DNA of 58,137 nt from Candidatus Kuenenia stuttgartensis (GTDB taxonomy: Bacteria > Pseudomonadota > Alphaproteobacteria > SMXS01), in contig CALQFM020000020.1 in the NCBI GenBank assembly GCA_943329845.2, positions 1 through 58,137 of the forward strand, given 5' to 3'. Positions 18,376 to 57,287 of this stretch are shown here, one piece after another. The translations under genes and the position numbers were made by a program. The notes below the pieces were generated by a model. The model worked only from the letters and a program-made list of their open reading frames with translations. It was not told the origin of the DNA and ran no database searches. Each line of letters opens with the position of its first letter. Position 1 is the stretch's first letter.

Positions 18376-18387
18376 CAAGCGTCTTGT
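18375..18387. promoter_or_regulatory. short inverted repeat, possible TetR-type operator
   Basis: ACAAG-CGT-CTTGT at 18375-18387, starting on the last base of the MFS stop and 55 bases before the flavoprotein start. The form resembles TetR-family half-sites, but no regulator gene is adjacent; the assignment is inference. Confidence 0.3.
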
Positions 18388-18441
18388 AGAAACCATTTCA
18401 CCTGTCCAGACTGCGTCCTCCATGAGTCGGAACGGGGATGG

Positions 18442-27451: not shown

Positions 27452-28227
27452 ACGAGACCGCGCCCGATATCATCGACGTCATCGAGGCCAGCAAGCCGGC
27501 GCTCTACCTGGACGCCGTCTCGGTCAGCTTCGACGGCTTCAAGGCGCTCAACAATTTATCGCTGGTCATCGACGTGGGCGAGATGCGCGCGGTCATCGGC
27601 CCCAATGGTGCCGGCAAGACCACCATGATGGACGTGATCACCGGCAAGACCCGGCCGGACACCGGCCAGGTCGCGTTCCACGGCGACACCGACCTGACGA
27701 AGCTCGACGAGGCGCAGATCGCGAACCTGGGGATCGGCCGCAAGTTCCAGAAGCCGTCGGTATTCGAAAGCCACACGGTCTGGAACAACCTGGAACTGGC
27801 GATGAAGGCCAAGCGTGGGCCGTTCGCCACCCTGTTCGCCCGCACTTCTTCGGAGGAGGAGGACAGGATCGACGCCATGCTGAAGCTGGTCGGCGTTTCC
27901 GACCGGCGCGCCGAGCTGGCGGGCGCGCTCAGCCACGGCCAGAAGCAATGGCTGGAGATCGGCATGCTGCTGATGCAGGAGCCGAGCCTGCTGCTGGTCG
28001 ACGAGCCGGTCGCCGGCATGACCGACGCCGAGACCGAGCAGACGGCGCACCTGCTGCGCGAGATCAACAAGACCAAGTCGCTGATGGTGGTCGAGCACGA
28101 CATGACCTTCGTCGAGGCGCTGGGCGTGAAGGTCACCGTGCTGCACGAAGGCTCGGTGCTGGCCGAAGGGCCGCTCGATTTCGTCCGCAACGACCAGCAG
28201 GTCATCGACGTGTATCTGGGGCGCTAG
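27448..28227 (+). CDS. urtD: urea ABC transporter ATP-binding protein
   Basis: A 259-residue ABC ATPase. Walker A is GPNGAGKTT at 51-59. The signature is LSHGQKQWLEIGMLL, Walker B LLLVDEPVAGMTDAE, and the H-loop is VVEHDM. It begins with a roughly 20-residue variable N-terminus before ALYLDAVSVSFDGF. It drives urea import together with UrtE. The ATG overlaps the urtC stop. Confidence 0.95.
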   Translation: MNETAPDIIDVIEASKPALYLDAVSVSFDGFKALNNLSLVIDVGEMRAVIGPNGAGKTTMMDVITGKTRPDTGQVAFHGDTDLTKLDEAQIANLGIGRKFQKPSVFESHTVWNNLELAMKAKRGPFATLFARTSSEEEDRIDAMLKLVGVSDRRAELAGALSHGQKQWLEIGMLLMQEPSLLLVDEPVAGMTDAETEQTAHLLREINKTKSLMVVEHDMTFVEALGVKVTVLHEGSVLAEGPLDFVRNDQQVIDVYLGR

Positions 28228-28230
28228 ACC

Positions 28231-28923
28231 ATGCTCACCTGCAAGGACATCAACCTGTATTACGGCTCCAGCCAGGCGCTGCGCGGCGTGTCCATGGCGG
28301 CTGAGATCGGCAAGGTCACCTGCGTGCTGGGCCGCAACGGCGTCGGCAAGACCAGCCTGATGCGCGCCATCGCCGGCCAGGTCAGCCCGCGCAGCGGCTC
28401 CATCGTCTGGGGCGACAAGGAGATCACCGGCATGCCGGCCTATGCGCGGGCTGCATCCGGCATCGCGCTGGTGCCGCAGGGCCGCGAGATTTTCCCGCTG
28501 CTGACCGTCGAGGAGAACCTGAAGTCGGGCTTCGCCGCGCTGCCGAAGAAGGAGCGCATGATCCCGCCGGAAATCTACGACCTGTTCCCGGTGCTGAAAT
28601 CCATGCTCGGCCGGCGCGGCGGCGACCTGTCGGGCGGCCAGCAGCAGCTTGCGATCGCCCGTGCACTCGTGATGCGGCCCAGGCTGCTGGTGCTCGACGA
28701 GCCGACCGAGGGAATCCAGCCATCGATCATCAAGGATATCGGCAACGTGATCGGCATGCTGCGCAACGCCCGCACCATGGCGATCGTGCTGGTCGAGCAG
28801 TATTTCGACTTTGCCCGCGACCTTGCCGACCACTTCGTGGTGATGGACCGGGGCGAGGTCGTTCTCGCCGGGCCACCGTCCAATTTCGCGGAAGCAGATG
28901 TTCGTCGACACCTCACCGTCTGA
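28231..28923 (+). CDS. urtE: urea ABC transporter ATP-binding protein
   Basis: A 230-residue ABC ATPase of the LivF type. Walker A is GRNGVGKTS, the signature LSGGQQQLAIARAL, and Walker B LLVLDEPTEGIQPS. The short N-terminus (MLTCKDINLYYGSSQALRGV) and C-terminal LADHFVVMDRGEVVLAGPP are typical of UrtE. It is 3 bases from urtD, and its 3' end overlaps ureD by 26 bases, which ties the transporter to the urease genes. Confidence 0.95.
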   Translation: MLTCKDINLYYGSSQALRGVSMAAEIGKVTCVLGRNGVGKTSLMRAIAGQVSPRSGSIVWGDKEITGMPAYARAASGIALVPQGREIFPLLTVEENLKSGFAALPKKERMIPPEIYDLFPVLKSMLGRRGGDLSGGQQQLAIARALVMRPRLLVLDEPTEGIQPSIIKDIGNVIGMLRNARTMAIVLVEQYFDFARDLADHFVVMDRGEVVLAGPPSNFAEADVRRHLTV

Positions 28924-29765: not shown

Positions 29766-30068
29766 GTGAACCTGACGCCCCGCGAGAAGGACAAGCTGAT
29801 GATCGCGCTCGCCGCCATGGTCGCCCGGGACCGGCTGGCCCGCGGCGTGAAGCTGAACTATCCGGAAAGCATCGCCATCATCACCAACGCGGTGATGGAA
29901 GGCGCCCGTGACGGCCGCAGCGTCGCCGACCTGATGGCGAGCGGCGCCCACATCCTCACCCGCGACCAGGTCATGGAAGGCATCCCCGAGATGATCCATG
30001 ACGTGCAGGTGGAAGCCACCTTCCCGGACGGCACCAAGCTGGTGACCGTCCACCATCCGATCCGCTGA
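29766..30068 (+). CDS. ureA: urease gamma subunit
   Basis: A 100-residue structural subunit of urease. The sequence begins [19 protein letters not shown] and contains [22 protein letters not shown] and [20 protein letters not shown], diagnostic of UreA. The start is a GTG at 29766 with GAGAGGGA upstream; the family length and N-terminus fix it. It is 13 bases from ureD and 10 from ureB. Confidence 0.96.
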
Positions 30069-30078
30069 GGGCCGCGCC

Positions 30079-30390
30079 ATGATCCCAGGTGAAGTCATTA
30101 CTGCTCCGGGCGAGATCGAGTTGAACGCCGGCCTGACGTCGGTCAGCCTCGTCGTCGCCAATGGCGGAGACAGGCCTGTCCAGGTCGGCAGCCATTATCA
30201 TTTCTACGAGACCAACGAGCAGCTGCAGTTCGACCGCGAGGCAGCCCGCGGCATGCGACTCGACATCGCCGCCGGAACCGCGCTGCGATTCGAGCCGGGC
30301 CAGAGCCGTTCGGTCACGCTGGTTCCCTTTCAGGGATACAGGGCTGTCTATGGTTTCAACCAGGCCGTCATGGGCAAGCTGGAGGGCTGA
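30079..30390 (+). CDS. ureB: urease beta subunit
   Basis: A 103-residue structural subunit. Diagnostic segments are [39 protein letters not shown] and [25 protein letters not shown]. It forms the (UreABC) trimer with the gamma and alpha chains in the cytoplasm. It is separate from ureA, as in most proteobacteria, and 3 bases from ureC. Confidence 0.96.
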
Positions 30391-30393
30391 CGA

Positions 30394-32106
<1,713 letters not shown>

Positions 32107-32114
32107 GGCCCGCC

Positions 32115-32624
32115 ATGCGCCGCGCCGTTTCCCATTATCCCGCCGGCCACTGGACAGCGCCCGCCGCCGGCACCGTGACCCTCGACTTCGACGCGCGGCA
32201 CCGCCGCCGCACCCTGCTGCGCACCGATGCGGGCGAAGACCTGCTGCTCGACCTGGAGCGGGCGGTCGCCATGGGCGACGGCGACGGACTCGAGCTCGAC
32301 GATGGCCGCTGGATCAAGGTGGTCGCCGCGCTGGAACGGGTCGTCGAGATTGCCTGCGTCTCGCCGGCCGAACTGGTCCGCGTCGCCTGGCACCTGGGCA
32401 ACCGGCACATCCCGACCCAGCTCTGCGAGGGCGCGCTGCGCATCCGCCCGGACGCGGTGCTGGAGCGCATGGTCCGCGACCTGGGCGCCCAGACCCGCTT
32501 CGCCGACCGGCCGTTCCAGCCGGAAAGCGGCGCCTATGCCGGCCAGCGCAGCCACGCGCATTCTCATGGGCATGACCACGACCATGATCACCACCATCAC
32601 GATCACGCGCACCATGACCAGTGA
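32115..32624 (+). CDS. ureE: urease accessory protein UreE (nickel metallochaperone)
   Basis: A 169-residue nickel carrier. The peptide-binding and metal domains are seen in ELVRVAWHLGNRHIPTQL and LRIRPDAVLERMVRDLGA. The C-terminus is a long His/Asp-rich tail (SHAHSHGHDHDHDHHHH...) that stores or binds nickel. The ureF ATG at 32614 lies inside this tail, so the two genes overlap by 11 bases in different frames. Confidence 0.93.
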   Translation: MRRAVSHYPAGHWTAPAAGTVTLDFDARHRRRTLLRTDAGEDLLLDLERAVAMGDGDGLELDDGRWIKVVAALERVVEIACVSPAELVRVAWHLGNRHIPTQLCEGALRIRPDAVLERMVRDLGAQTRFADRPFQPESGAYAGQRSHAHSHGHDHDHDHHHHDHAHHDQ

Positions 32625-33453
32625 CGGGCTGCATCTGCTGCGCCTGCAGGCCTGGCTGTCGCCGTCCTTCCCGATCGGCGGGTTTTCCTACTCGCACGCG
32701 CTGGAACAGGCGGTGCAGCGCGGCTGGGTGCATGACCGGGAAACGCTGGTCGACTGGCTCGACGCGGATCTGCGCCACGGCGCGGGACGGTCCGACGCGA
32801 TCCTGCTGGCGGCGGCGTATAGGGCAAGCACCGCCTCTTATTCAGCCGTCATCCCCGCGCACGCGGGGACCCAGACGGGGAAGGGGCTCGTTCCCTCAAC
32901 CGCTCCGTTACGAACAAACTTCTTTGGTGAGCAACCCGCGCCGACCGAGCCCTACGAAGAGCTGGGTCCCCGCGTGCGCGGGGATGACGCGAGTATTTTG
33001 GAAGTCGCGGAGCTCGCCGCGGCGCTGCGCGGCACTGCGGAACTGGCGCTCGAATCAACCACCCAGGGCATCTCGTTCCTGACCACCATCCGCAAGGCCT
33101 GGCCGAACCGGAAGCTCGAAGACCTGCACCGTCTGCTCGCCGAAAACCACACCACACCGACCTTTCCCGTCGTCGTCGGCGTGGCCTGCGCCGCGTACGG
33201 CATCCCGCTGGCTTTGGCGCTGCAGTTCACCCTGCAAGCGGTCATCGCCAACTATATCGGCGCCGCGCTGCGCCTCATGAAAATGGGCCAGACCGACGGT
33301 CAGCACGCCATCGCGGCGCTGGAGGACGCGGTGATGGAAACCGCCGACGAGGCGCTCGCCGCCACGCTCGACGACATCGGCTCGGCCAGCCTGTCGGTCG
33401 ACGTCGCGTCCATGCGCCACGAAACCCAGTACAGCCGCATCTTCAGGTCCTAG
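32614..33453 (+). CDS. ureF: urease accessory protein UreF carrying an in-frame 47-codon insert
   Basis: UreF activates the UreG GTPase in the UreDFG complex. The N-terminus [24 protein letters not shown] and the parts [40 protein letters not shown] and [13 protein letters not shown] are typical. The product is 279 residues against about 230 normally. The excess is residues 79-125, encoded exactly by the palindromic element at 32848-32988 (VIPAHAGTQ ... LGPRVRGDD). Removing 47 residues gives the normal length. The insert falls between [10 protein letters not shown] and [10 protein letters not shown], in a helical region, so activity may be kept or lost; this cannot be decided from sequence. 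It ends 10 bases before ureG. Confidence 0.92.
32848..32988. repeat. 141-bp palindromic element inserted in frame within ureF
   Basis: The ends are perfect 27-bp terminal inverted repeats (32848-32874 and 32962-32988), each containing a local hairpin TCCCCGCG-CA-CGCGGGGA. The length is 47 codons exactly and both borders fall on ureF codon boundaries, so the frame is kept and no stop is introduced. The translated ends are VIPAHAGTQ and [10 protein letters not shown] relative lies at 34651-34797. I see no target-site duplication. Confidence 0.93.
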
Positions 33454-33463
33454 GAGGCACGCC

Positions 33464-34099
33464 ATGTCACCATATCGAGGTCCCCTGCGCGTCGGCATCG
33501 GCGGCCCGGTCGGCGCCGGCAAGACCACGCTGGTCGAGAATTTGTGCAAGCGCATGCGCGCGCACTGGGACCTGTTCGTCATCACCAACGACATCTACAC
33601 CAAGGAAGACCAGCTCATCCTCAACCGCGCCCAGGCGCTGTCCGAGGACCGCATCATGGGCGTGGAGACCGGCGGCTGCCCGCACACGGCGATCCGCGAG
33701 GACGCGTCGATCAATCTGGTCGCCATCGACCAGATGTCGGCGCGCTTCCCCAAGGCCGAGCTGTGCTTCATCGAATCCGGCGGCGACAATCTGGCCGCCA
33801 CCTTCAGCCCGGAACTGGCCGACCTGACGCTCTACGTCATCGACGTGGCCGGCGGCGAGAAGGTGCCGCGCAAGGGCGGCCCCGGCATCACCCGTTCCGA
33901 CCTGCTGATCGTCAACAAGACCGACCTGGCGCCCCATGTGGGCGCGAGCCTCGAGGTCATGGAGGCCGACACGCGGCGCATGCGCGGCGAGCGGCCCTAC
34001 GTGTTCACCAACCTGCGCACCGGCCAAGGCGTGCAGACCGTCATCGACTTTATCGTCCGGATGGGCGGGCTGACGCCCGCGCCCGTCGCCGTCATCTGA
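33464..34099 (+). CDS. ureG: urease accessory GTPase
   Basis: A 211-residue SIMIBI-class GTPase that delivers nickel to urease with UreDF. The P-loop is [10 protein letters not shown] at residues 13-22. The metal-binding CPH is in [17 protein letters not shown], followed by [20 protein letters not shown] and the guanine motif [11 protein letters not shown]. Length is standard. AGGAGG precedes the ATG. Confidence 0.97.
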
Positions 34100-34108
34100 G
34101 GAAGAGCC

Positions 34109-34636
34109 ATGTCCCGAACCTGCCAAGCCCTTTTCGCCGCCTTCCTGTTCGCCATGTTCGTGGTGCCCAGCACGGCCTTCGCCCATGTGGTGCCGGGCGA
34201 CACCCACTATCACAGCGTCGCCGATGGTTTCGTCCATGCCGCGACCGGGCTCGACCATGTGTTCGTCGCCGTCGTCGTCGGGCTGTGGGCCGCGTGGCGG
34301 CCGCTGAAGTCGACGGCGGTCGCGCTCGGCATCTACGGCGCCGGCATGGCGGTGGCGGGGTTGATCGGCCTGGGCGGCGAGAGCGCTCTGCTGGACATCG
34401 CGCTGGTCGGCTCGGGCTTCGCGGCGGTCGTCGCCGGCATCATGAAGGGCAGGGACTGGCTGGTGGCGTCGCTGGTGCTGACCGCCGCCGCCCTGCAGGG
34501 CATCATCCACGGCATGGCCGCTTCGGAAGTGGGCTACGGCGTACTGTTCATCACGGGGCTGACCGTGGCGACGCTGGCCATCGCGGCGGTTGCGGGCGTC
34601 GCTTCACGGCGGTTCAAGATCAGGGCTCTCGCCTAA
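34109..34636 (+). CDS. HupE/UreJ-family nickel transport protein
   Basis: A 175-residue membrane protein with a signal peptide (LFAAFLFAMFVVPSTAFA) and about five further helices. HAATGLDHVFVAVVVGLWAA matches the HPxxGxDH...VGLWA signature of HupE/UreJ, and IIHGMAASE carries a second His motif. The family brings nickel into the cell for hydrogenase or urease. Position at the end of the ure operon, 9 bases after ureG, supports nickel supply for urease. AGGAAGAG precedes the ATG. Confidence 0.9.
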   Translation: MSRTCQALFAAFLFAMFVVPSTAFAHVVPGDTHYHSVADGFVHAATGLDHVFVAVVVGLWAAWRPLKSTAVALGIYGAGMAVAGLIGLGGESALLDIALVGSGFAAVVAGIMKGRDWLVASLVLTAAALQGIIHGMAASEVGYGVLFITGLTVATLAIAAVAGVASRRFKIRALA

Positions 34637-42132: not shown

Positions 42133-43047
42133 CTAGGCCGGCATCACGAGCGGTTGCTTGGGCTCCAGTTCGACCACGTCGACGGTGGCCTTCAGCGTGT
42201 GCGCGCCGGAGACGCGGATGACACCCTTCACCGGCGCCACGTCGACATAGTCGCGGCCCCAGGCCAGCGGGATGTGGTCGTTGCCGGCATAGCGGGCGTT
42301 GGTCGGATCGATCTCGATCCAGCCGTGCTCATCGCCGCACCAGACGGCGACCCAGGCATGCATGGCGTCGGCGCCCTGCAGCCGCTTCTTGCCGGGCGGC
42401 GGGCGGGTGCGCAGATAGCCGCTGATATAGGCGGCGGCGAGGCCCAGCCCCCGCAGGCCGGCGATCATCACATGGGCGAAGTCCTGGCAGACGCCCTTGC
42501 GCAGGTCGAACGCCTCGCGCGGGTCCGACGCCACGTCGGTCACGCCGGGCGCGTAGTCGAAGCCGGTATAGATGCGGTTGGACAGCTCGGTCAGCGCCTC
42601 GAGGATCGGCCGGTCGGCCTTGAAGCTGCGCGCGGCATAGGCGGTGATCTGCGGATCCAGCGACACGCGGCGGCTGGGGAACAGGAAATGGGCGGGCGAG
42701 TCCGGACCCGGATCCAGGTTCTCGGCGCAGGCGGCGCGGACCTCTTCCCAGGCCGGCGTGTCCTTGGGATCTGGCGGCGGCGGCGCATCGCGCTCGACGA
42801 CGGCGTGGGTGTCGATGATCAGCGCGCCGTGCGGCTCGAGGAACGACAGCCACAGGTTCTCGTTGCCGAAGAAATCGAGGAACGCCCGCTGCGTCGTCGG
42901 CGTCGGGTCCACGTCGATGCTCTGGCTGATCACGCTGAGGCCGGGCCGGTCGACCAGCGACAGCCGCACGAGCTGCGACGACAGCGCCACGTTGTTGGCA
43001 TACTCGTAGTGTGTCTTCTGGCTGATGTCGTAGCGCATGGCGACCAT
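42133..43047 (-). CDS. transglutaminase family protein (ATP-grasp/alpha-E cluster)
   Basis: A 304-residue protein with the bacterial transglutaminase N-terminal beta domain (MRYDISQKTHYEYANNV...) and the catalytic core. The nucleophile Cys is in LRKGVCQDFAHVMIAGLRGLG. The His is in MHAWVAVW and the Asp in WIEIDPTN. It begins 3 bases after the ATP-grasp/alpha-E gene and is the third gene of a conserved cluster. From comparative work known to me, such clusters are proposed to make or break peptide-like amide bonds; no product has been established. ATG 43047 has GGGG 8 bases upstream; ATG 43038 is an alternative. Confidence 0.92.
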   Translation of the reverse strand: MVAMRYDISQKTHYEYANNVALSSQLVRLSLVDRPGLSVISQSIDVDPTPTTQRAFLDFFGNENLWLSFLEPHGALIIDTHAVVERDAPPPPDPKDTPAWEEVRAACAENLDPGPDSPAHFLFPSRRVSLDPQITAYAARSFKADRPILEALTELSNRIYTGFDYAPGVTDVASDPREAFDLRKGVCQDFAHVMIAGLRGLGLAAAYISGYLRTRPPPGKKRLQGADAMHAWVAVWCGDEHGWIEIDPTNARYAGNDHIPLAWGRDYVDVAPVKGVIRVSGAHTLKATVDVVELEPKQPLVMPA

Positions 43048-43050
43048 GAT

Positions 43051-45534
43051 TCAGCCCCGTACCGACACGTTGCCCTGCACGAAGAACCGGGCGGTCAGCA
43101 GGTCGGACAGCTTCAGTACCTGCATGCGCACCCAGCCCACGGTGGCCGCGTCCACGTCGGCGGCGGCGGTCGTTGCCAGCTCGGCGACCAGCAGCGCCGC
43201 GATCTTCTCCTCCTGGGTCGGCAGGCCGTCCGACTGCTGGATCGGCATGGCCGCCAAGGTCCGGGCGATGACGCCGATCTGGAAGGCGACCGAGCGCGGG
43301 TTATTGGCGTCGAGCACGACCATGTCGAGCACGGCGGGGCGCCCCGCCGAGGTGGCGTAGCGCACCCGGTAGGAAATCTGGCTGTCGGCGAACTCCAGCA
43401 GCACGTCGAGGCCGCCGCGGACGATCTCGCCGCGGATGAAGCGCTCGACGACCGAGCAGGTGGCGGCCGCGCGTTCCATGCGGCGGCCCATCTCGAGGAA
43501 GCGCCAGCCCAGCAGCCGGTTCATGTTCTCCTGGCTGAGGCCGGAGAAGCCGGCGACCAGGTCGAGCGCCTCGTCGGCGGCGTCGATCACGTCGCCGTCT
43601 GTGGCGGTCGGCGGCAGGCGGCGCTCCAGGTGGGCGCTCAGCTTGGTCAGCTCGCGCCAGGCCTGCGGCGACAGGCGCTCGCGAATGCCCGAGGCGGCGT
43701 TGCGCGCCGAGCGCACCAGCGAGGCGGCGGTGCCGAACTGCCTGGCCTCGTAGAGCGCCGCGACAAGGTCGGCGCTGGTCAGGCTCTGGCGTTCCTCCAG
43801 CTTGAGCGCGCCGAGGCCGACGAGGGCGCCGCGCAGCCGCGCGATCAGCCGGTTGTCCAGGTCGTCCCGGTCCAGCAGGCGCTGGGCGACGGCGCGGATC
43901 AGCCGCAGGCAGGCCTCGGCCCGCTCCATGTAGCGGCCCAGCCAGAACAGATTATCGGCGGCTCGGCTCGGCAGGGTGCCGGTGCGGCGGGTGATCTGCA
44001 CCTCGTCCGGCTCGGTCAGCAGCGTGGTCTGCGGCGTGTCGTCCTCGGCCGGGATCCACACGTCGACGGCGCGGCCGCCCTGCTGCATGGTGACGGCGCG
44101 GGCGTCGAGTCGCTCGGAGACGCGCGAGAACGCGCCCGGCATCACCGACCAGCCGCTGGGCGTGCGCACCGCATAGGCGCGGACCACGCAGGGTCGCGGC
44201 TCCAGCGCCTTGCCGGTCCATACCGGCGTGGTCGACAGCCGCACCACTTCCTGGCCGACGAAGTCGACGCTGCGGCGCTTGAGCGCGTCGAGCACCGCCT
44301 TGCGGTCGCCGCGCGCCAGCTCGCCGGCGATCACCGGGCCGCTGTTGAGGATGTCCAGGCTGGAGCGGTTGAACGCCGGCGCGATGGCCAGGTCCTGGAA
44401 ATTCTCCAGCACATGGGCGCGCTCGCGCTCCTGGCCGCACCACCAGGTGGCGATGTTCGGCAGCATCAGTTCCTCGCCCAGCACGTGCTGGCACAGCGCC
44501 GGGAGGAAGCCCATCAGCGCGCGGGATTCCAGCATGCCGGCGCCGATCGAGTTGACCACCGTCGCATAGCCCTCGCGTACCGCCTCGACCAGCCCGGGCA
44601 CGCCGAGCTGGGAGCCCGGGTTCAGCTCCAGCGGGTCGATGAAGTCGCTGTCGACGCGGCGCCAGATCACGTCGGCGGGCTGGGCGCCCTCGACCGTGCG
44701 CACGGCGAGCCGGCTGTCGCGCACCACCAGGTCGGCGCCCTCGACCAGCAGGAAGCCTAGGTAGCGCGACAGGTAGGCGTGCTCGAAATAGGTTTCGTTC
44801 AGCGGGCCTGGCGTCAGCAGGCAGACCCGGGCGTTCTCGCGCTCGTGCAGCTCGTTGAGGGTGTCGCGCAGGGTCTGGAAGAAACCCGCGACGCGGCGCA
44901 CGTTCATGGCGCGGTAGATGTCGGGCAGCGAGCGCGACAGGGCGATGCGGTTCTCCAGCGCATAGCCCATGCCCGATGGCGCTTGGGTGCGGTCGGACAG
45001 CACCCACCAGTTGCCGTCGGGGCCGCGGCCCAGGTCGACGGCGTAGACCCGCAGATGGTAGCCGCCCTTGGGGTCGATGCCGACCATGGGCCGCAGGAAA
45101 TCCTCGCTGCCCGCGACCACGGCGGCGGGCAGGTGACCGTCGCGCACCAGGTTCGCCGGGCCGTAGACGTCGGCGACCAGCGCCTCCATCAGCTCGGCAC
45201 GCTGGGCGATGCCGGCCTCCAGCGCCTTCCATTCGACCGGGTCGATGACCAGCGGCACGTGGTTGAGCGGCCAGATGCGCTCGCCCTCGCCCGATCCGTA
45301 GACCCGGTGGAACACGCCCGCGTCGCGCAGGTGCCGGTCCGCGGTGGAAAAGCGGCGCTCCAGCTCGGCGGTGCCCAGGGAGGCGAAGGAATCCACCAGC
45401 TCGCGCCAGTGCGGCCGGATCTTGCCGTCCGAATCCATCAGCTCGTCATAGGCGTCGGCCAGCGGGACGTAGCCGTCCAGCAGCTTGGCCCGCTTGCGGG
45501 CTTCTCCGGTAAGGGTCTGTTCTAAGGCGCTCAT
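43051..45534 (-). CDS. circularly permuted ATP-grasp protein fused to alpha-E domain
   Basis: An 827-residue two-domain protein. The N-terminal part (about 60-470) is a circularly permuted ATP-grasp type 2 ligase: GIDPKGGYHLRVYAVDLGRGPDGNWWVLSDRTQAPSG, VRTVEGAQPADVIWRRVDSDFIDPLEL, VVNSIGAGMLESRALMGFLP and KPxxR-like segments. The C-terminal part (about 515-820) is the all-helical alpha-E domain (ADNLFWLGRYMERAEACLRLI). ATP-grasp members form amide bonds through acyl-phosphates. In many genomes these are two adjacent genes; here they are one. It is flanked by two transglutaminases on the same strand, spaced by 10 and 3 bases. Confidence 0.93.
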   Translation of the reverse strand: MSALEQTLTGEARKRAKLLDGYVPLADAYDELMDSDGKIRPHWRELVDSFASLGTAELERRFSTADRHLRDAGVFHRVYGSGEGERIWPLNHVPLVIDPVEWKALEAGIAQRAELMEALVADVYGPANLVRDGHLPAAVVAGSEDFLRPMVGIDPKGGYHLRVYAVDLGRGPDGNWWVLSDRTQAPSGMGYALENRIALSRSLPDIYRAMNVRRVAGFFQTLRDTLNELHERENARVCLLTPGPLNETYFEHAYLSRYLGFLLVEGADLVVRDSRLAVRTVEGAQPADVIWRRVDSDFIDPLELNPGSQLGVPGLVEAVREGYATVVNSIGAGMLESRALMGFLPALCQHVLGEELMLPNIATWWCGQERERAHVLENFQDLAIAPAFNRSSLDILNSGPVIAGELARGDRKAVLDALKRRSVDFVGQEVVRLSTTPVWTGKALEPRPCVVRAYAVRTPSGWSVMPGAFSRVSERLDARAVTMQQGGRAVDVWIPAEDDTPQTTLLTEPDEVQITRRTGTLPSRAADNLFWLGRYMERAEACLRLIRAVAQRLLDRDDLDNRLIARLRGALVGLGALKLEERQSLTSADLVAALYEARQFGTAASLVRSARNAASGIRERLSPQAWRELTKLSAHLERRLPPTATDGDVIDAADEALDLVAGFSGLSQENMNRLLGWRFLEMGRRMERAAATCSVVERFIRGEIVRGGLDVLLEFADSQISYRVRYATSAGRPAVLDMVVLDANNPRSVAFQIGVIARTLAAMPIQQSDGLPTQEEKIAALLVAELATTAAADVDAATVGWVRMQVLKLSDLLTARFFVQGNVSVRG

Positions 45535-45544
45535 CCCCTCTTCA

Positions 45545-47140
45545 CTATTCCGGCGGGCGGCGCAGGTCCAGCGTCATCGGAAATTCTTCGGTGCGGTTCT
45601 CCGCCGCCGGGAAGAACCAGCCCGGCGTGTGGCCATGCGGCTGGAAGCGGGCTAGGCGCCGCGCCTCGGCCTCATAGGCGTTGACCGGGAAGGTCTCGTA
45701 GTTGCGGCCGGCCGGATGCGCGGCGTGGTAGAGGCAGCCTCCCAGCGACCGTCCGTTCCACAGATCGTAGAGGTCGAAGGTCAACGGCACGTGCACCGGA
45801 ATGGTCGGCTGCAGGCCCGACGCCGGCTGCCAGGCCTTGAAGCGCACGCCGGCCACATACTCGCCGTGCCTGCCGGTCGAGGTCATCGGCATGCGGCGGC
45901 CGTTGCAGGCGAGGACGTGGCGCTTGGGATTGAAGCCCTCGGCGCGCATCTCCAGCCGCTCCACCGACGCGTCCACATAGCGGACGGTGCCGCCGATCGC
46001 GCCTTCCTCGCCCATCACGTGCCATGGCTCCAGCGCCTGGCGCAGCTCCATGTGGACCCCGCCATAGTCGACCGCGCCGAAATACGGGAAGCGGAACTCG
46101 CGCTGTGCCTCGTACCAGCTGCTGTCCATCGGGTAGCCGGCCTGGTTCAGGTCGTCGAGCACGTCGAGGAAGTCGGTCCACAGGAAGTGGGGCAGCAGGT
46201 ACTTGTCGTGCAGCTGGGTACCCCAGCGCACCAGGTTGCCGGTCTGCGGCTGGTGCCAGAACCACGACACCAGCGCCCGCAGCAGTAGTTGCTGCGCCAG
46301 GCTCATGCGCGCGTCGGGCGGCATCTCGAACGAGCGGAACTCGATCAGCCCCAGCCTGCCAGTCGATGAATCCGGAGAATATAATTTGTCGATGCAGATC
46401 TCCGACCGGTGGGTGTTGCCCGACACGTCGATCAGCAGGTTGCGGTACAGCCGGTCCACCAGCCACGGCGGAATGCTGTCGGCGTCATTGGGACCCGGCG
46501 TCATCGCCAGGGCGATCTCCATCTCGTAGAGGCTGTCGTGGCGCGCTTCGTCGATGCGGGGCGCCTGGCTGGTCGGACCGATGAACAGGCCCGAGAACAG
46601 GTAGGACATGGCCGGGTGGCGCTGCCAGTACAGGATCAGGCTCTTCAGCAGGTCCGGACGGCGCAGGAACGGGCTGTCGTTGGGGGTCGCACCGCCGATC
46701 ACCACATGGTTGCCGCCGCCCGTGCCGGTATGCCGGCCATCGATCATGAACTTGTCGGTGCCCAGGCGGCTCTGGCGGGCTTCCTCGTAGACGATGTTGG
46801 TGGTGTCGACGCAGTCCTGCCACGACGCGCCCGGATGGATGTTGACCTCGATCACGCCGGGGTCGGGCGCCACCTTGATGACGTTGAGGCGGGGATCGTT
46901 GGGCGGCAGGTAACCCTCGATATGGACGGCGATCTGCTGCTCCTCGGCCGATGCCTCGACTGCCGTGAGCAGCTCCAGATAATCCTCGAGCTGCTCGACG
47001 GGCGGCATGAACACGCACAGCACGCCGTCGCGCACCTCCATGGTCATGGCGGTGCGCACGGACGGGCCGCCGGCATGCTGCTCGGTCTGTTGCTCGCGCT
47101 CGCGTTCACGCACGCCGGCGCGCTGGTAGGACTGCAGCAT
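45545..47140 (-). CDS. DUF2126 half of an interrupted transglutaminase-DUF2126 protein
   Basis: A 531-residue frame from ATG 47140, in the same frame as the upstream half and separated from it only by TAG 47174-47176 and 11 sense codons. It holds the whole DUF2126 domain: [60 protein letters not shown], and [20 protein letters not shown]. In relatives this is the C-terminal half of a protein of about 1100 residues. GGAGG is present 3 bases before ATG 47140, a short spacing, so re-initiation is possible but may be weak. It precedes the ATP-grasp gene by 10 bases. Confidence 0.8.
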
Positions 47141-47173
47141 GACCTCCGGATCGGGCAGCGGCGGCCGCTCGAT

Positions 47174-47176
47174 CTA
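47174..47176 (-). other. in-frame amber stop splitting a conserved gene
   Basis: TAG between YIYPADP and [11 protein letters not shown] in one continuous frame from 48844 to 45545. The surrounding sequence is otherwise intact on both sides, with no frameshift. Confidence 0.9.
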
Positions 47177-48844
47177 CGGGTCGGCCGGGTAGATGTACGG
47201 GTAGGAGCCGGCGGACACGTAGGGCAGCGAGCCCAGCGGCAGCCGGTAGCCCATCGGGCTGTCGCCCGGCGCCAGGAACAGCTTGCCGCGGCGGAAACCC
47301 CAGCGCTCGCTGATCCAGCCGCCGCCGGCCCGGGCGTTCCACCGCTGCACCGGCAGCACGTAGCCGGTGGGCTTGGTCAGGCCGCGCTCGAACACGCGGG
47401 CGATGCGCGCCCGGTCTTCGGCGTTTTCCAGCCTGGAGTTGGAGGGATCCACGTTTTCCGGCAGCTCGGCCTCCTTCATCAGCCAGTGGGCCGGATCCTC
47501 ATATGCGGTCGTGACGTAGTCGGACGAGAGGCCGAGCCGGTCGGCGAAGTCCTCGATGAGGCGCCGGGCGTCCTCCGTCGTGGTATGGGTGCGGCGGGTC
47601 TCGCGGGCGATCAGGTCCGGGTTGCGCCAGACCGGCTTGCCGTCGCGGCGCCAGAACAGCGAGAACGTCCAGCGCGGCAGGGACTCGCCCGGATACCACT
47701 TGCCCTGGCCGTAATGCAGCATGCCGCCGGGCGCGAATTTCTCCCGCAGCCGGCGGATCAGCACGTCGGCCCGGTCGCGCTTGGTGGGGCCGACGGCGGC
47801 GGTGTTCCATTCCTCCGACTGGTAGTCGTCGATCGACACGAAGGTCGGCTCGCCGCCCATGGTCAGGCGGACGTCCTGGGCCTCCAGATCGCGGTCGACC
47901 ATCTCGCCGACCTCGTTCAGCCGCTCCCAGGCCTCGTCCGAGAACGGCAGGGTGATGCGCGGACGCTCGTCGATGCGGGTGACCGTCATCTCGAAGTCGA
48001 ACTGGACCTCGGCCGGCTCGACGCCGCCGACGATGGGCGCCGCCGACCGGTAGTGTGGCGTGGCGGCGAGCGGGATGTGGCCTTCGCCGGTCAACAGGCC
48101 CGATGTCGGATCGAAGCCGATCCAGCCCGCGCCGGGCAGGTAGACCTCGGCCCAGGCGTGCAGGTCGGTGAAGTCCACCTCGGTGCCGGACGGGCCGTCG
48201 AGCGCCTTCAGGTCATGCTTGAGCTGGATCAGGTAGCCGGAGACGAAGCGCGCCGCCAGACCCAGGTGGCGCAGGATCTGCACCAGCAGCCAGCTGGTGT
48301 CGCGGCACGAGCCCGACTGGAGCGACAGCGTCTCTTCGGGCGTCTGCACCCCGGGCTCCAGGCGGATCAGGTAACGGGTCTCGCGCTGCAGCCGGGCGTT
48401 CAGGTCGACCAGGAAGTCGACGGTCTTGACCTTGTGCGTCGGCAGCGTCTTGAGGAAAGCTTTCAGCGCCGGCCCGGCCGGTTCGGGTTCCAGATAGGCG
48501 GCGAGATCGACCTTCAGGTCGTCGGGCAGGGTGAACGGCAAATGGTCGGCGTATTCCTCGACGAAGAAATCGAACGGGTTGACCACCGACAGGTCGGCCA
48601 GCAGATCCACCTCGATGGCGAACTCGGTGACCTTCTCGGGGAACACGTAACGCGCCAGCCAGTTGGAATGGGCGTCCTGCTGCCAGTTGATGAAATGCTT
48701 CTCCGGCGTGACCTTGAGCGAATAGCTCAGGATCGGCGTGCGCGAATGCGGCGCCGGGCGCAGCCGGATGATCTGCGGCCCCAGGGAAACGGGACGCTCG
48801 TAGCGATACCGCGTCAGGTGGTGAATCGCTGCCTTGATGCCCAT
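47174..48844 (-). CDS. transglutaminase half of an interrupted transglutaminase-DUF2126 protein (premature TAG)
   Basis: A 556-residue frame from ATG 48844. It has a transglutaminase N-terminal domain (HHLTRYRYERPVSLGPQIIRLRPAP) and the catalytic core with Cys in LQSGSCRDTSWLLVQILRHLGL and His/Asp in DLHAWAEVYLPGAGWIGFDPTSG. A linker region follows (MTVTRIDERPRITLPFSDEAW, MGGEPTFVSIDDYQS, WTFSLFWRRDGKPVW). It stops at TAG after YIYPADP, exactly where homologues continue into DUF2126. One base change would restore a single 1099-codon gene. First gene of the ATP-grasp/transglutaminase operon. Confidence 0.85.
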   Translation of the reverse strand: MGIKAAIHHLTRYRYERPVSLGPQIIRLRPAPHSRTPILSYSLKVTPEKHFINWQQDAHSNWLARYVFPEKVTEFAIEVDLLADLSVVNPFDFFVEEYADHLPFTLPDDLKVDLAAYLEPEPAGPALKAFLKTLPTHKVKTVDFLVDLNARLQRETRYLIRLEPGVQTPEETLSLQSGSCRDTSWLLVQILRHLGLAARFVSGYLIQLKHDLKALDGPSGTEVDFTDLHAWAEVYLPGAGWIGFDPTSGLLTGEGHIPLAATPHYRSAAPIVGGVEPAEVQFDFEMTVTRIDERPRITLPFSDEAWERLNEVGEMVDRDLEAQDVRLTMGGEPTFVSIDDYQSEEWNTAAVGPTKRDRADVLIRRLREKFAPGGMLHYGQGKWYPGESLPRWTFSLFWRRDGKPVWRNPDLIARETRRTHTTTEDARRLIEDFADRLGLSSDYVTTAYEDPAHWLMKEAELPENVDPSNSRLENAEDRARIARVFERGLTKPTGYVLPVQRWNARAGGGWISERWGFRRGKLFLAPGDSPMGYRLPLGSLPYVSAGSYPYIYPADP

Positions 48845-48996: not shown

Positions 48997-49368
48997 CTAC
49001 TTCTTCTGCACCCAGGCGCCGTCGGCGCCCTGGAACCACCAGCCGGCCGGCGCGGCGCTCATGATCTGGCCGGCATAGACCTTGCCGACCTCTTCGGCGG
49101 GCGCGCCCTTGGCGGTCGCCTGCTCGGTGTAGACCTTGCGGCGCTCGGCGTTGGTGTCCTCGACCAGCTTGCGCACGTCGGCCGGCGCCTTGGCATCGCG
49201 CACTACGGCGTAGCCGTCATAGCGTTCACCCACGACACCGCTCGATCGCGGCGCATCGAGCGGCTTGGACTGGGCATAGGCGCTGGCCGCATTCAGGGCG
49301 ACGATGCCGCCGGCCCCGGTCAAGCATAGCGCCGCGGCCGTCAGAATGGAGGACAGGGTCTTTTTCAT
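48997..49368 (-). CDS. ydbL: YdbL-like (DUF1318) periplasmic protein
   Basis: A 123-residue secreted protein: signal peptide MKKTLSSILTAAALCLTGAG...AYA, then the DUF1318 region (GVVGERYDGYAVVRDAKAPADVRKLVEDTNAERRKVYTEQA, GKVYAGQIMSAAPAGWWF). AGGA 7-9 bases before ATG 49368 supports that start; ATG 49377 is in frame. It is the last gene of the ydbH-ynbE-ydbL set, 10 bases from ynbE. In E. coli the partner proteins YdbH and YnbE bridge the two membranes; YdbL appears to modulate them. Confidence 0.88.
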   Translation of the reverse strand: MKKTLSSILTAAALCLTGAGGIVALNAASAYAQSKPLDAPRSSGVVGERYDGYAVVRDAKAPADVRKLVEDTNAERRKVYTEQATAKGAPAEEVGKVYAGQIMSAAPAGWWFQGADGAWVQKK

Positions 49369-49378
49369 CGGGTTCATC

Positions 49379-49597
49379 CTAGAAAATCGGCTTGCTGGCG
49401 ACGTCTTCCTTCGCCTGCTGCTCCAGCTTGACGCGCACATCGGCGTCCAGCTTGATGTTGAGGTTGATGGTGATCGGCTCCTTCGGGGCCTGCACCTTCA
49501 CCGTCGGCGAGCACGCGGCGAGCGACAGAGCCGCCGCGATTACCGCCGGCAACCCGCCACTCCGCTTAAACGATTGATCCATGAAGCTTGTTCTCAT
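49379..49597 (-). CDS. ynbE: YnbE-like outer-membrane lipoprotein
   Basis: A 72-residue lipoprotein precursor with a signal ending in lipobox LSLAAC, the Cys being the lipidation site. The mature part VKVQAPKEPITINLNIKLDADVRVKLEQQAKEDV is the conserved YnbE core, which in E. coli stacks on the C-terminus of YdbH by beta-strand pairing. An ATG at 49582 (MDQSFKRSGG) would give a more standard signal peptide than ATG 49597. It lies between ydbH and ydbL in the same direction. Confidence 0.87.
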   Translation of the reverse strand: MRTSFMDQSFKRSGGLPAVIAAALSLAACSPTVKVQAPKEPITINLNIKLDADVRVKLEQQAKEDVASKPIF

Positions 49598-49657
49598 CCC
49601 GCTGGAGCCGTCACAAGAACATAGGGTAATTCGGTACGCTTCGCCATCACTCGCGGG

Positions 49658-52636
49658 TCATTTCTTGCCGAGCTCCCGGGCACCCCAGCCCAACGCGGTG
49701 TTCGCCGCGCCGGAAAGTTCGAGCACCAGCCTGGTCAGATAGTCGAAGTCGGTTTCCAGGCTGATGTTGAACACGAAGGGCTGGCCGTCCATCACCTTCG
49801 GGTTGTTGCCTTCCAGCCGGAACATGGCCTTGCCGGCGCCGGAGAACGGCTTGTCGGCGTCGATCACCATGCGGTCGTAGTGGAAGTCGGTGAGGGCGCG
49901 GAACGCCATGTCGACGTTCTCGCCATAGGTCTGGAGCTTGTCCGCCAATGCCGTCACGCCAACCTGCAGCGTGCCGGGGACCGAGGATTCGAGATGGCCC
50001 TTCTCCACCGATACCCTGCCGCCCGCGAGCCGCAGTGGCAGCAGCCCGCCGATCCGGCCGGTGCCCTTCAGTTGCTCCAGGTCCAGCACGGCGAAGGCCG
50101 TCTCGATGTTGATGTCGCTGACTTTCAAGTCGACCCGGCCGTCGCCGGTCGCGGCATCGATCTCGGCATTCTCGGTCTCGAACTGGCCGTCGAACACCTT
50201 GGCTGTGGCCCGCTCCAGCACCAGCTTGCCCGGGTCCAGCCGGAACGTGACGTCGAACGGCACCGCGTTCTCCGTCGGCAGCTGCAGGGTACCGGTAAGG
50301 CGCTGGCCGCCGGCCGAACGAATAGGCGACAGGCTGTCGAGCCGCAGACCGCCATTGATCGCGGAGACGTTGAGGCTCTCGCCGGTCACCGATACGTCCT
50401 TGAGCGCCAGCGTCAGCGTGCCCGGCGGCGCGCCTTCGCCCCAATGGATCGCGCCGTCGCCGCTGACGGTGCCGCCTGTCTTGGTCACGCCCGCCGCCAG
50501 CTTCGGCGAGAGGGCTTTCAGCGTGCCGTCGCCCGACAGGTCGATGGGCTTCAGCGCGACGCTGGTACTGCCCTTGCCGCTGTCCAGGTTATGGCTTCCC
50601 TTGGCCGTCAGGCTGAGAACCTTGCCCGCGCCGGTCAGGCCGGCGGCGAACGTCGCCGTCGATCCCGAGACGCGGGCGTCGACGGTGGCCCTCATGGTCG
50701 AGAAAAGCGCTGGCTCGCCGGTGCCGCGCAGTTCGGCGATGGATGCCTTGATGCCGGTTGTGTCGCCCGCCTGGGTGATCGTCGCGGAAATCCCACGTGC
50801 CGCCACGCCGCTGTCAGGCAGCTCCAGGCGGCCTTTGTCCAGCACGGCCTTCAGCCCGTCCTTGTCCACGGTCAGCGCCATCCGCACGGCGCCGAGCATT
50901 GCCTTGCCCGGTTCGGCGCCCTCGCGTCTGACAGTGGCGGTCCAGGCGAAAGGTTGCAGCACGGCGGATGCCGCGACCGCGCCGGTTGCTCGGTCCCTGG
51001 CATAGGTCGCAGCCGGTTGCAGTAGCAGGCTCGACGTGCCGGGGAGCGAGACAGTCTCGCCCCAATGGGCGTTGCGCACGGTCAGCGCGCCGCTGTCGGC
51101 GGTCAGCCTGATGGTTTGAGGGCCTACGTCGTACTTGCCCGCCAGCGCCAGTTCCGTAGACGGCAGGCTCCGGCCTTCCGGCAACTTGAGCGACAGTTCG
51201 GCTTTCAGGTTGAGGTCGCCCTTCGCGGCAATGTCGTGCGCCGACGCCAGCCATTGCGACGGATCGAGCGAGGCGTCGCCCGCGATGTCGCCTCGGACGA
51301 ACAGGGCGGGCGTCTCGTAGCTGATGCCGCCGCTTACCGTAAGCTTGTCGGAGCCGTCTTGCGGCGTGATGGCAAGGAACGGCGCGTCCGGCGCGGGCGC
51401 GACCGACAGGTTCGAATTTCCGGCGAACAGGCTGCCTTTCGCGGCGATGGATGGGTCCAGCGTCATGCCGCTTGCGGTGATGCCCTTGGGCGTGGTGACC
51501 GACAGCGCGCCGTCGGCCAGCTTGACATCGAGCGACACGACCGCGTCATCCACCGTCACGGTTCCCGGAATGCGCAGGCCGCTTGCCGTGCCGTCGAGCG
51601 AGGCCTGCGCCTTGCCCACGCGCAACCAGTCGCCCAGCCCCGAGGCGAATGCCGCCTGCATCGTCGGCCCGGGTGGCGTCATGCCCGACGCCCTGAGATG
51701 CACGCCGCCGGTCGCCGGCCTGTCGGCGCCGGCCAGCCCGCTGACAAAAGCGGCGTCGGCGGTGCCTTCCATGGTGAACGGCACGCCGGCCTGGGGCTTG
51801 GCGCCATCCGCCTGCAGCGAGAACGAGACCGGTTTCGACTGCAGGGCCACGTTCAGCACGTTCTGCGGTTGGCGCAGCGAGGTCGAGAGCCGGCCCGGAC
51901 CCAGTGGACCTGTGCCGCCGGAAATCTGCGCGAAGCCGAAGGCGCCGTCGACCAGGTCGATGCCCTGCGCGCTGGTCACCAGCCGCAAGGTACCGGTCAG
52001 CGTCTCCGCCTTCACCGTGCCGACGGCCAGGTCGCCGTCGCTGACGGTGAACATGCCGGCGCGCGCGCCGTCCGGCATCATGGTGCCGGTGATCCGGCCC
52101 GTCATATGCCCCTGCGGCGCGCGCACGGTCATCGCCAGGTTGGCGCCCATATTGTCCTTGCCCGTCACCGCGCCGGAGACATCCGCGATGATCTGCGTGC
52201 CTTCCATGTCGAGCGTCAGGCGGGAGTTCCGGATGTCGAGCCGATCGAGCGGCAGGCTGATCGGGCCGTCGCTGGGCGTGATGGCGGGGAACAGCTTGCC
52301 GTCCTTCCAGGCAAAACGGAGGCGGGCGCCGTCGACGCTCATGCGCCGCACTTCGCCGCTCAGCAGGTCGCCGATCCGGTAATCCACATGGATGCGGTCT
52401 ATGGTGCCGGCGGCCGACGACACCAGGCGCATTTCCGCCCGCGCGAATCCCAGGTCGGTGACACGCACGTCCGACGGACCCAGGCCAAAATCGTCGATAC
52501 TGTTCTCGATCGCCCTCTCGGTCAGCGCCGCCCGCGACATCCACAGCAGCAGTAGCGCCGCGGCAAGCACGGCGAGCGTTCCGGTGGTGATGCGGAAGGC
52601 GCGCGACCGGCGGCGCCAGGAGGAGCGGAGCGTCAT
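49658..52636 (-). CDS. ydbH: YdbH-like AsmA-family intermembrane transport protein
   Basis: A 992-residue protein anchored by one N-terminal helix (ITTGTLAVLAAALLLLWMS), followed by a very long periplasmic region of repeated beta-strand patterns, as in AsmA-like bridge proteins. The C-terminal YdbH domain is recognisable (LDLEQLKGTGRIGGLLPLRLAGGRVSVEKG, MDGQPFVFNISLETDFDYL). E. coli YdbH acts with YhdP and TamB in moving phospholipids to the outer membrane. ATG 52636 is chosen for the basic n-region (MTLRSSWRRRSRAF); the ribosome binding site is weak. First gene of the operon. Confidence 0.88.
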   Translation of the reverse strand: MTLRSSWRRRSRAFRITTGTLAVLAAALLLLWMSRAALTERAIENSIDDFGLGPSDVRVTDLGFARAEMRLVSSAAGTIDRIHVDYRIGDLLSGEVRRMSVDGARLRFAWKDGKLFPAITPSDGPISLPLDRLDIRNSRLTLDMEGTQIIADVSGAVTGKDNMGANLAMTVRAPQGHMTGRITGTMMPDGARAGMFTVSDGDLAVGTVKAETLTGTLRLVTSAQGIDLVDGAFGFAQISGGTGPLGPGRLSTSLRQPQNVLNVALQSKPVSFSLQADGAKPQAGVPFTMEGTADAAFVSGLAGADRPATGGVHLRASGMTPPGPTMQAAFASGLGDWLRVGKAQASLDGTASGLRIPGTVTVDDAVVSLDVKLADGALSVTTPKGITASGMTLDPSIAAKGSLFAGNSNLSVAPAPDAPFLAITPQDGSDKLTVSGGISYETPALFVRGDIAGDASLDPSQWLASAHDIAAKGDLNLKAELSLKLPEGRSLPSTELALAGKYDVGPQTIRLTADSGALTVRNAHWGETVSLPGTSSLLLQPAATYARDRATGAVAASAVLQPFAWTATVRREGAEPGKAMLGAVRMALTVDKDGLKAVLDKGRLELPDSGVAARGISATITQAGDTTGIKASIAELRGTGEPALFSTMRATVDARVSGSTATFAAGLTGAGKVLSLTAKGSHNLDSGKGSTSVALKPIDLSGDGTLKALSPKLAAGVTKTGGTVSGDGAIHWGEGAPPGTLTLALKDVSVTGESLNVSAINGGLRLDSLSPIRSAGGQRLTGTLQLPTENAVPFDVTFRLDPGKLVLERATAKVFDGQFETENAEIDAATGDGRVDLKVSDINIETAFAVLDLEQLKGTGRIGGLLPLRLAGGRVSVEKGHLESSVPGTLQVGVTALADKLQTYGENVDMAFRALTDFHYDRMVIDADKPFSGAGKAMFRLEGNNPKVMDGQPFVFNISLETDFDYLTRLVLELSGAANTALGWGARELGKK

Positions 52637-52778
52637 GCGCTGGAGAATATCCGGATCGCGCGCGGCCCGACAGGTCGTTGCTCGGCGCTGCCGTTCATTT
52701 CGCCTCCGCACCCCTTGGGAACCGGGAAACAGGCACCATATTGAGGGGCAAACAGTCCATCCCCGAGAGGATCGCCCC

Positions 52779-55595: not shown

Positions 55596-56144
55596 TTAGG
55601 CCGCCTGCCTGAGTTCGATCAGCGCGGTGCGGCGTCGGTCGTCTTCCGCTCCGACACGCATGCCGACTTTCACCATGCCGGTGGCGCCCGCGAGCGCCCC
55701 GGGCACCAGCTCGAGGCCCTGGAAGCGGTCGCGCTCGACCGGGCCGGGCAGGGTAAGGCCGGCGGTCAGTTCCGACGAGAAGCCAAAACGCCCGTAGTAG
55801 GGCGCGTCGCCGACCAGGATCACCGCACGGTGGTTCATGGCCGATGCTTCCGCCAGCGCGTGGTCCATCAGCAGGGTGCCGATGCCGAGGCCCTGGCATT
55901 CGGGGAGCACGCCGATGGGGCCGAGCAGCAGCGCGTCGCCGGCCGAACCGGCTTCCACGTGCCACAGGCGTACCGTGCCGGCAAGCCGGGCGCCCTGCCA
56001 GGCGCTGAAGGCGAGGCCGTCGGCGGGGCGCTGGCCCCGCCGGAGCTTCTCGCAGGTTTTCAGGTGCCGGCCGGGCAGGGCCCGGTCCAGCAGGATTTCC
56101 CGCGCCGGAATGTCCAGCGCCGTTTCGTTGCGGATCACGATCAT
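55596..56144 (-). CDS. GNAT-family N-acetyltransferase
   Basis: A 182-residue acetyltransferase. The acetyl-CoA binding motif is LGPIGVLPECQGLGIGTLLMDHAL, followed by VGDAPYYGRFGF. The layout (early IRNETALDIPAREILLDRAL) resembles the YhbS-like group of uncharacterised GNATs. It sits between ornithine decarboxylase (9 bases upstream) and homospermidine synthase, so a polyamine or precursor substrate is possible but unproven. Confidence 0.9.
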   Translation of the reverse strand: MIVIRNETALDIPAREILLDRALPGRHLKTCEKLRRGQRPADGLAFSAWQGARLAGTVRLWHVEAGSAGDALLLGPIGVLPECQGLGIGTLLMDHALAEASAMNHRAVILVGDAPYYGRFGFSSELTAGLTLPGPVERDRFQGLELVPGALAGATGMVKVGMRVGAEDDRRRTALIELRQAA

Positions 56145-56153
56145 GTCCGTGCC

Positions 56154-57287
56154 TTAGATGACGATCGCCTGGAGGGGCGAAAATCCGTTGAAGGCAACCG
56201 AGGCATAGGTGGTGGTGTACGCGCCCGTCGCCTCGATCAGGACCTCGTCGCCGATCTCCAGGGAAATGGGGAGCGGGTAGGGGGTCCGTTCATAGAGCAC
56301 GTCTGCCGAATCGCATGTCGGACCGGCCAGGACACAAGGCGCGACCGCATCACCATCGCGCGGCGTGCGGATGGGATAACGGATGGACTCGTCCATGGTT
56401 TCCGCCAGGCCGCCGAATTTTCCGATGTCGAGATAGACCCACCGCACATTGTCCTCGTCGGACTTGCGGGAAATCAGCACGACCTCGGCCTTGATCACGC
56501 CGGCATCGCCAACCATGCCCCGGCCCGGTTCGATGATGGTCTCGGGCAGACGGTTGCCGAAGTGTCGTCGCAGCGCGCCGAAGATCGCCTGCGCATAGGC
56601 GTCCACTTTCGGCACGTCCTTGAGGTACTTGGTCGGGAAACCGCCGCCCATGTTGACCATGGACAGCTGGATGCCGCGCTCGGCGAGGGCGCGGAACACC
56701 ATCGACGCATCGGCCAGCGCACGGTCCCACGCACCCACGTTGCCCTGCTGCGAGCCGACGTGGAACGAGATGCCGTAGGGCGACAGGCCAAGTTCCTTGG
56801 CCTTCTCCAGTACGCCCACGGCCATGGCCGGGACGCAGCCGAATTTGCGGCTCAGCGGCCATTCGGCGCCGGCGCCGTCGGCAAGCACGCGGCAGAACAC
56901 GCGGGCGCCGGGCGCCTGACGCGCGATCTTCTCCACCTCCTCGACGCAGTCGACCGCATAGAGGTCGATGCCAAGCTGGAAGGCGCGCGCGATGTCGCGT
57001 TCCTTCTTGATGGTGTTGCCGAACGAGATGCGGTCCGGCGTGGCGCCGGCGGCCAGCGCCAACTCGATCTCCGTCACCGAAGCGGTGTCGAAGCTCGAGC
57101 CCAGCTCCGCCAGCAGGCTCAGCACGGCCGGCTCCGGATTGGCCTTCACGGCATAGAAGATGCGCGTCTCGGGCAACGCCCGGGCGAACGCCATGTAATT
57201 TTCACGAACGACGTCGAGGTCGACGACGAGGCACGGGCCTTCCGGCCGCGTGTTGGCAAGATAGTCAAGGACGCGTTGGGTCGCCAT
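56154..57287 (-). CDS. ornithine/lysine decarboxylase (PLP fold type III)
   Basis: A 377-residue PLP enzyme converting ornithine to putrescine. PLP-binding Lys 48 is in FYAVKANPEP; the His stacked on PLP is in GISFHVGSQQ; the Gly-rich phosphate loop is VNMGGGFPTKYL. EPGRGMVGDAGVI follows, and the active-site Cys 325 from the partner subunit is in TCDSADVLYE. The alanine-racemase-like fold type III ODC of alphaproteobacteria often also uses lysine. AGGGGA lies upstream of ATG 57287. First gene of the polyamine operon, preceded by a long gene-free leader. Confidence 0.93.
   Translation of the reverse strand: MATQRVLDYLANTRPEGPCLVVDLDVVRENYMAFARALPETRIFYAVKANPEPAVLSLLAELGSSFDTASVTEIELALAAGATPDRISFGNTIKKERDIARAFQLGIDLYAVDCVEEVEKIARQAPGARVFCRVLADGAGAEWPLSRKFGCVPAMAVGVLEKAKELGLSPYGISFHVGSQQGNVGAWDRALADASMVFRALAERGIQLSMVNMGGGFPTKYLKDVPKVDAYAQAIFGALRRHFGNRLPETIIEPGRGMVGDAGVIKAEVVLISRKSDEDNVRWVYLDIGKFGGLAETMDESIRYPIRTPRDGDAVAPCVLAGPTCDSADVLYERTPYPLPISLEIGDEVLIEATGAYTTTYASVAFNGFSPLQAIVI

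Follow-up and report, generated by a model that had tools for sequence, protein, structure and literature searches.

Among the described systems close to the locus studied here is the Anbu operon, which, in the part of its description that was available (PMC6376114), groups the genes for an ATP-grasp protein, alphaE, a transglutaminase-like protein and Anbu. Genes encoding ATP-grasp, Alpha-E and transglutaminase-like proteins also lie together in the window, as we term the whole stretch of DNA that was analysed, although here the genes tested beyond the second transglutaminase gene encode a hemerythrin and an MpaB-type oxygenase and not Anbu. A further difference is the presence of a DUF2126 gene, which does not figure in the Anbu operon as set out in that part of the source. 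DUF2126 was not found by name in the literature searched, no characterised member of the DUF2126 ligase family emerged from the literature or from the searches of solved-structure sequences, and no NCBIfam family was obtained for the four proteins tried.

The transglutaminase-DUF2126 gene of the window is interrupted by a TAG codon (Table 1). Singleton frameshifts validated by BLAST are expected to be sequencing errors and not genuine indels, according to the accessible text of PMC3711429. The present locus resembles singleton disrupted genes, which may be recent pseudogenes or sequencing errors, in that it displays one disablement in one genome with no decay elsewhere, and it differs from singleton frameshifts in that the change is a substitution, is located in a linker and has a start codon nearby. 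The best reading, towards which we lean without great assurance, is that a very recent nonsense mutation truncates the protein at codon 557 and disables the predicted ligase.

Table 1. Features of the interrupted gene and of its cluster, with positions numbered from the first nucleotide of the window.
Feature	Position	Strand	Description	Basis
Upstream ORF, 556 aa	47174..48844	-	Transglutaminase-like N-terminal region and core, and first ~280 residues of DUF2126
Bact_transglu_N and Transglut_core	48107..48829	-	Residues 6-82 and 146-246, respectively	Domain search
PF09899 (DUF2126)	45560..48019	-	Putative amidoligase, profile 1-826, broken by TAG	Pfam search
GGEPTF	47840..47857	-	Residues 330-335, before the stop; invariant in 40 aligned sequences; candidate GS-like metal site
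In-frame TAG	47174..47176	-	Codon 557 of 1099 of the transglutaminase-DUF2126 gene
Variable linker	47057..47176	-	Codons 557-596, inside DUF2126; length-variable and poorly conserved; TAG is its first codon	Alignment
Downstream part	45545..47173	-	542 codons and own TAG stop; same frame; rest of DUF2126
GGAGG	47143..47147	-	Shine-Dalgarno-like; separated from the internal ATG by 2 nt; shared with intact G002
Internal ATG (Met569)	47138..47140	-	First in-frame ATG/GTG/TTG past the TAG
HTGTGGGNH	46706..46732	-	Residues 705-713, after the stop; invariant except T706 and N712; candidate GS-like substrate/metal loop
Glu-Phe-Arg (EFR)	46334..46342	-	Residues 835-837, after the stop; invariant; candidate counterpart of GS E357/R359 (mapping inferred)
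Next cluster gene	43051..45534	-	Circularly permuted ATP-grasp and Alpha-E; open	Domain search
Second transglutaminase-like gene	42133..43047	-	Open	Domain search

Position of the stop codon within the DUF2126 gene

The trinucleotide CTA at positions 47174-47176 of the plus strand of the 58,137-nt stretch corresponds to TAG on the minus strand, where it constitutes the single internal stop of a gene that is otherwise open over the 1099 codons obtained by reading through. A preliminary description of the locus had noted that both halves occupy one frame, which is borne out by the sequence and the ORFs, and had likened the flanks of the stop to uninterrupted homologues, in agreement with an amino-acid identity on either side of 96-97% to congener G001 and of 94-95% to congener G002. 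The stop had also been placed in a linker just before DUF2126. It does lie in a linker, but one internal to DUF2126: the match to PF09899 starts at residue 276 (position 48019) and spans both halves, the N half covering profile positions 1-279 and the C half positions 308-826. The whole-profile match presents a score of 1337.6 bits over positions 1-826 (cut-off of 27) with one TAG inside, and each half also passes the cut-off alone, with 397.9 and 925.5 bits, respectively. The border between the transglutaminase and ligase parts is near residue 276, away from the stop.

In an alignment of 40 sequences, comprising this gene and 39 relatives taken from the 78 complete loci described below, the TAG directly follows an Asp that is invariant and a Pro that is almost so, and the 31-residue windows with the lowest conservation in the protein have their centres in the linker formed by codons 557-596. 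Leaving out codon 557, which is already a stop, 319 single-base changes could create stops elsewhere in the gene, 13 of them within codons 557-597. A random stop would fall in the linker by chance in ~4% of cases, making its position notable, not strong, evidence.

Intact and interrupted relatives

The family was found in all seven genomes of the genus that were searched, including the one that carries the stretch, a draft of 107 contigs here termed G000. The five other congeners whose sequence spans the site are all open there (5/5), displaying TCG (G002, G003 and G006) or ACC (G001 and G005) at codon 557, while the sixth, G004, contains a fragment of the gene that does not cover the site. 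These five congeners share with the present gene its domain order, its length and the two genes that come next, and the TAG at codon 557 is found here alone. Seven further, more distant relatives are likewise open at the site. A scan of named genomes, of which the best 80 of 593 stretches were considered (65-71% identity), revealed no interruption in any of the 78 loci that reach the end of the gene (78/78), the remaining two stopping at a contig edge. In L051 and L060, from the Rhizobiales isolates AFS032198 and AFS066368, respectively, the contig breaks off near codon 555, on the border of the variable linker.

The family is present in 43 of the 289 genomes of a class sample, with internal stops in two of them (G000 and G132), and in 120 of the 398 genomes of a phylum sample, where frame breaks were recognised in G652 and G338 besides G000. 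When the two samples are pooled, allowing for four family genomes common to both, interruptions are recognised in 4 of 159; interruption of the family is uncommon but ordinary. Among these four genomes only G000 is broken at the place of codon 557, and no split at the linker (557-596) was seen in any other family genome from either sample. Many of the phylum genomes that yielded two matches in fact have a single open frame whose alignment is broken by the variable linker. In G132 (locus L136, contig C319) a TAG and a TAA lie in frame, 28 codons apart, in the conserved ligase core. The distant relatives G652 (L150) and G338 (L151) carry frame breaks in the DUF2126 gene, and the reading frame adjoining the broken gene in L151 is presumably Anbu.

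A different arrangement is found in G539 (L149, C1:3610500-3616000), where two adjacent, slightly overlapping genes encode a protein of 300 aa, called transglutaminase-like by reading and not by domain search, and a DUF2126 protein of 713 aa. The likeness to the gene of the window lies in the encoding of the transglutaminase and DUF2126 parts in two adjacent stretches. In G539, however, the split coincides with the beginning of DUF2126 (matched from profile position 32 onwards) and both DUF2126 parts stay in one protein, while the TAG described here lies ~280 residues deeper than that border. Hardly any of the variable linker within DUF2126 is present in G539.

Selection acting on the two halves

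A tree of both halves and the two following genes places the stretch beside G001, with a support of 0.999. Changes were attributed to a lineage at codons where the other three of the window, G001, G002 and G005 agree, leaving out disagreeing codons as well as G003 and G006. In the N half, the window lineage accumulated 28 synonymous and 4 nonsynonymous changes, compared with 60 and 10 for G001 and G002 summed (Fisher p = 1.0), while the respective numbers for the C half are 35 and 5, compared with 40 and 6 (Fisher p = 1.0). The two following genes display no significant difference (p = 0.59 and 0.22), and pairwise rates agree with the lineage counts. The earlier view of a gene otherwise under constraint is upheld by normal purifying selection in both halves of the window lineage; relaxed constraint after the TAG was looked for in the C-half counts and not found, these being similar to those of the control lineages. 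The counts exclude a C half that was free of constraint over the entire branch (P about 1e-16). Under a simple model, P is 0.056 if the C half drifted over 5% of the branch and 0.0085 if it did so over 8%, and the C half, if silent, became so in about the last 5% of the branch. This unchanged constraint is equally compatible with a mutation that is very recent, with an error in the assembly and with a C half that is still in use.

Predicted ligase fold

The read-through protein was modelled from 40 sequences with moderate confidence (mean pLDDT of 70.1 and pTM of 0.65). In the structure comparison, the model matches glutamine synthetase (GS; 9n4x_F) with a Z-score of 13.8 and an rmsd of 3.7 over 248 aligned residues, within a model range of 303-921 that spans the stop. 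Of the 50 structure matches listed, 49 begin at residues 296-308 and finish past the stop, the remaining one being of transglutaminase type; these ranges denote the first and last aligned residues only and do not give the share aligned before the stop. Foldseek alone gave much weaker results: a single cysteine-protease entry accounts for its three matches with E of at most 0.001, followed by YbdK (E 0.018) and by GS-type entries from E 0.36. A search of PDB sequences with the full profile retrieved two transglutaminase-type chains only (E up to 1), and the same search with the C half retrieved no match (E up to 10).

The C half was also modelled alone, using an alignment of 36 sequences that differs from the 40-sequence alignment of the full model (mean pLDDT of 68.3). 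Residues 651-690, which in the full model present block pLDDT values of 75-89 and form strands 653-661 and 664-669, have pLDDT values of 40-60 in the C-half model, with no strand of at least three residues listed. The two models suggest that this region packs against sequence located upstream of the stop. GS is absent among the 50 matches listed for the C-half model, the best of which (Z-score of 5.0) involves C-terminal strands; the comparison re-aligns Foldseek candidates only, so that the absence of GS does not exclude a GS fold. Foldseek returned nothing at E 0.001 or better for this model. The C-half model does match YbdK (Z-score of 4.6, 159 residues), which we take to be a ligase of the wider GS superfamily, and part of the GS fold may survive in the predicted C half. 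The interpretation given below accordingly does not depend on the comparison made with the C-half model.

The metal and substrate residues of GS include E129, E131, E212, E220, H269, E357 and R359, as given in the part of PMC6529630 that was available. The invariant segments proposed as their candidate counterparts are located on either side of the stop (Table 1). This arrangement, together with the GS-fold match that spans the stop, means that the TAG probably divides one predicted active site.

Internal start codon and possible read-through of the stop

The GGAGG-ATG reported 30 bases beyond the stop is present, except that the ATG begins 33 nt past the TAG. Ranked with a generic anti-Shine-Dalgarno sequence, the Shine-Dalgarno-like match of Met569 is second of 61 in-frame start-like codons when spacing is ignored, and 32 of 61 when a spacer of at least 4 nt is demanded. 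The ATG is found in four of the five congeners and the GGAGG in uninterrupted G002, and therefore neither arose with the TAG. A new or well-placed ribosome-binding site for the C half was not found, the GGAGG being separated from the ATG by 2 nt and shared with G002.

TAG also terminates this gene, in the five congeners as in the window, and likewise the second transglutaminase gene of the window; it is an ordinary stop here. No tRNA with a CUA anticodon was identified among 41 tRNAs, an incomplete list from which Ser-GCU and Ile-GAU are missing. The region around the TAG displays no unusual RNA structure (z of 0.18).

Quality of the assembly

Three family searches of the same genome yielded 90 rows (47, 12 and 31, respectively) with no internal stop, two of which belong to a frameshifted pstB-like gene. 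This gene, encoding a pstB-like ABC ATPase at G000:C3:36174-36633 (L142), seems frameshifted in that profile positions 3-110 and 107-136 are matched in different frames. A related pstB-like copy at C16:57958-58591, with 72% DNA identity, is matched by the profile without a break. For the most part the assembly is clean, yet with some disruptions. As for other same-frame interruptions in the window, five pairs from the coding-signal scan were inspected (17215-20067, 27445-28860, 30109-32103, 33485-34582 and 55611-57266), and these look like ordinary gene borders. Substitution errors of the kind that would be required here are, in general, rare at normal read depth.

Origin of the interruption

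The preliminary description had left the choice among gene fission in progress, a null mutation and a sequencing error. A null mutation and an error both fit the constraint on both sides of the TAG and its absence from the five congeners. Under the nonsense mutation that we favour, a single-nucleotide change, present in G000 and not in the congeners examined, would have created the TAG, and translation would end after 556 residues. The short product would retain the transglutaminase-like domain and about the first third of DUF2126, the predicted GS-like amidoligase, whereas the remaining two thirds would be untranslated or weakly made from Met569; the next cluster genes are open. With most of DUF2126 untranslated or weakly made, the predicted ligase activity would most likely be lost or strongly reduced in the strain. 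We infer that the base belongs to the organism and did not arise in the assembly. Some observations count against a null mutation: a TAG at the least conserved stretch, followed by an ATG with a strong Shine-Dalgarno-like match, is what a tolerated split would show, and constraint past the TAG is normal, which also fits an error or a C half that is still synthesised. As a basis for a null mutation, the GS match counts for less, the model being of moderate confidence and the Foldseek matches weak. An assembly or consensus error, under which codon 557 would be a sense codon in the organism and the protein would be ordinary and of full length, is unlikely, though by no means negligible. It would account for the unchanged constraint on both sides of a TAG that is one base away from the TCG of G002, G003 and G006, in an assembly of 107 contigs that contains the frameshifted pstB-like gene; the 90 family-search rows lacking internal stops, the ordinary borders of the five same-frame pairs and the general rarity of substitution errors argue against it. 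The likelihoods that we assign to a real mutation and to an error rest partly on general knowledge of error rates.

Synthesis of the two domains as separate proteins, as had been proposed, is weakened by the position of the TAG, which divides DUF2126 itself and is spanned by the GS-fold match. A working fission is improbable; in it, the halves would be made separately, the second by re-initiation at Met569, and would come together again as an active enzyme. Purifying selection on both halves, the variable linker and the ATG preceded by GGAGG count in favour of such a fission. The span of the GS-fold match in a model of moderate confidence, the 2-nt spacer with the low rank of Met569 once spacing is considered, and the presence of the GGAGG and the ATG in uninterrupted congeners speak against it, as do the class and phylum samples, with no other genome split at the linker, and G539, which is split elsewhere and keeps the DUF2126 parts joined. 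Decidedly improbable is the more specific proposal that a one-base change made the GS-like amidoligase a two-piece enzyme, with a transglutaminase-fused piece ending past the candidate first metal site and a piece starting at Met569 that would reassemble. Least probable of the explanations weighed, and very much so, is that the TAG is read through by a suppressor tRNA, reassignment or programmed read-through to give a full-length protein: the purifying selection downstream of the TAG would agree with it, against which stand the use of TAG to end this gene and others nearby, the lack of a CUA anticodon among the tRNAs of the incomplete list, the aligned relatives without a stop at the site and the ordinary RNA structure.

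A nonsense allele is an ordinary kind of event. If the TAG is real, the gene would offer a naturally occurring loss-of-function allele in a ligase family that is widespread, useful for asking what role the transglutaminase/ATP-grasp/Alpha-E cluster plays. The two-piece enzyme, if true, would show the splitting of a protein at the level of a species, with constraint still complete, while an error would leave the gene simply ordinary.

Neighbouring genes

Upstream of the cluster, the region 49000-52711 contains genes for a DUF1318 protein and for a YdbH-like protein of intermembrane phospholipid transport. At positions 30061-34588, a urease gene cluster, the urease names being read from the translations, comes after two genes for ABC transporter ATPases.
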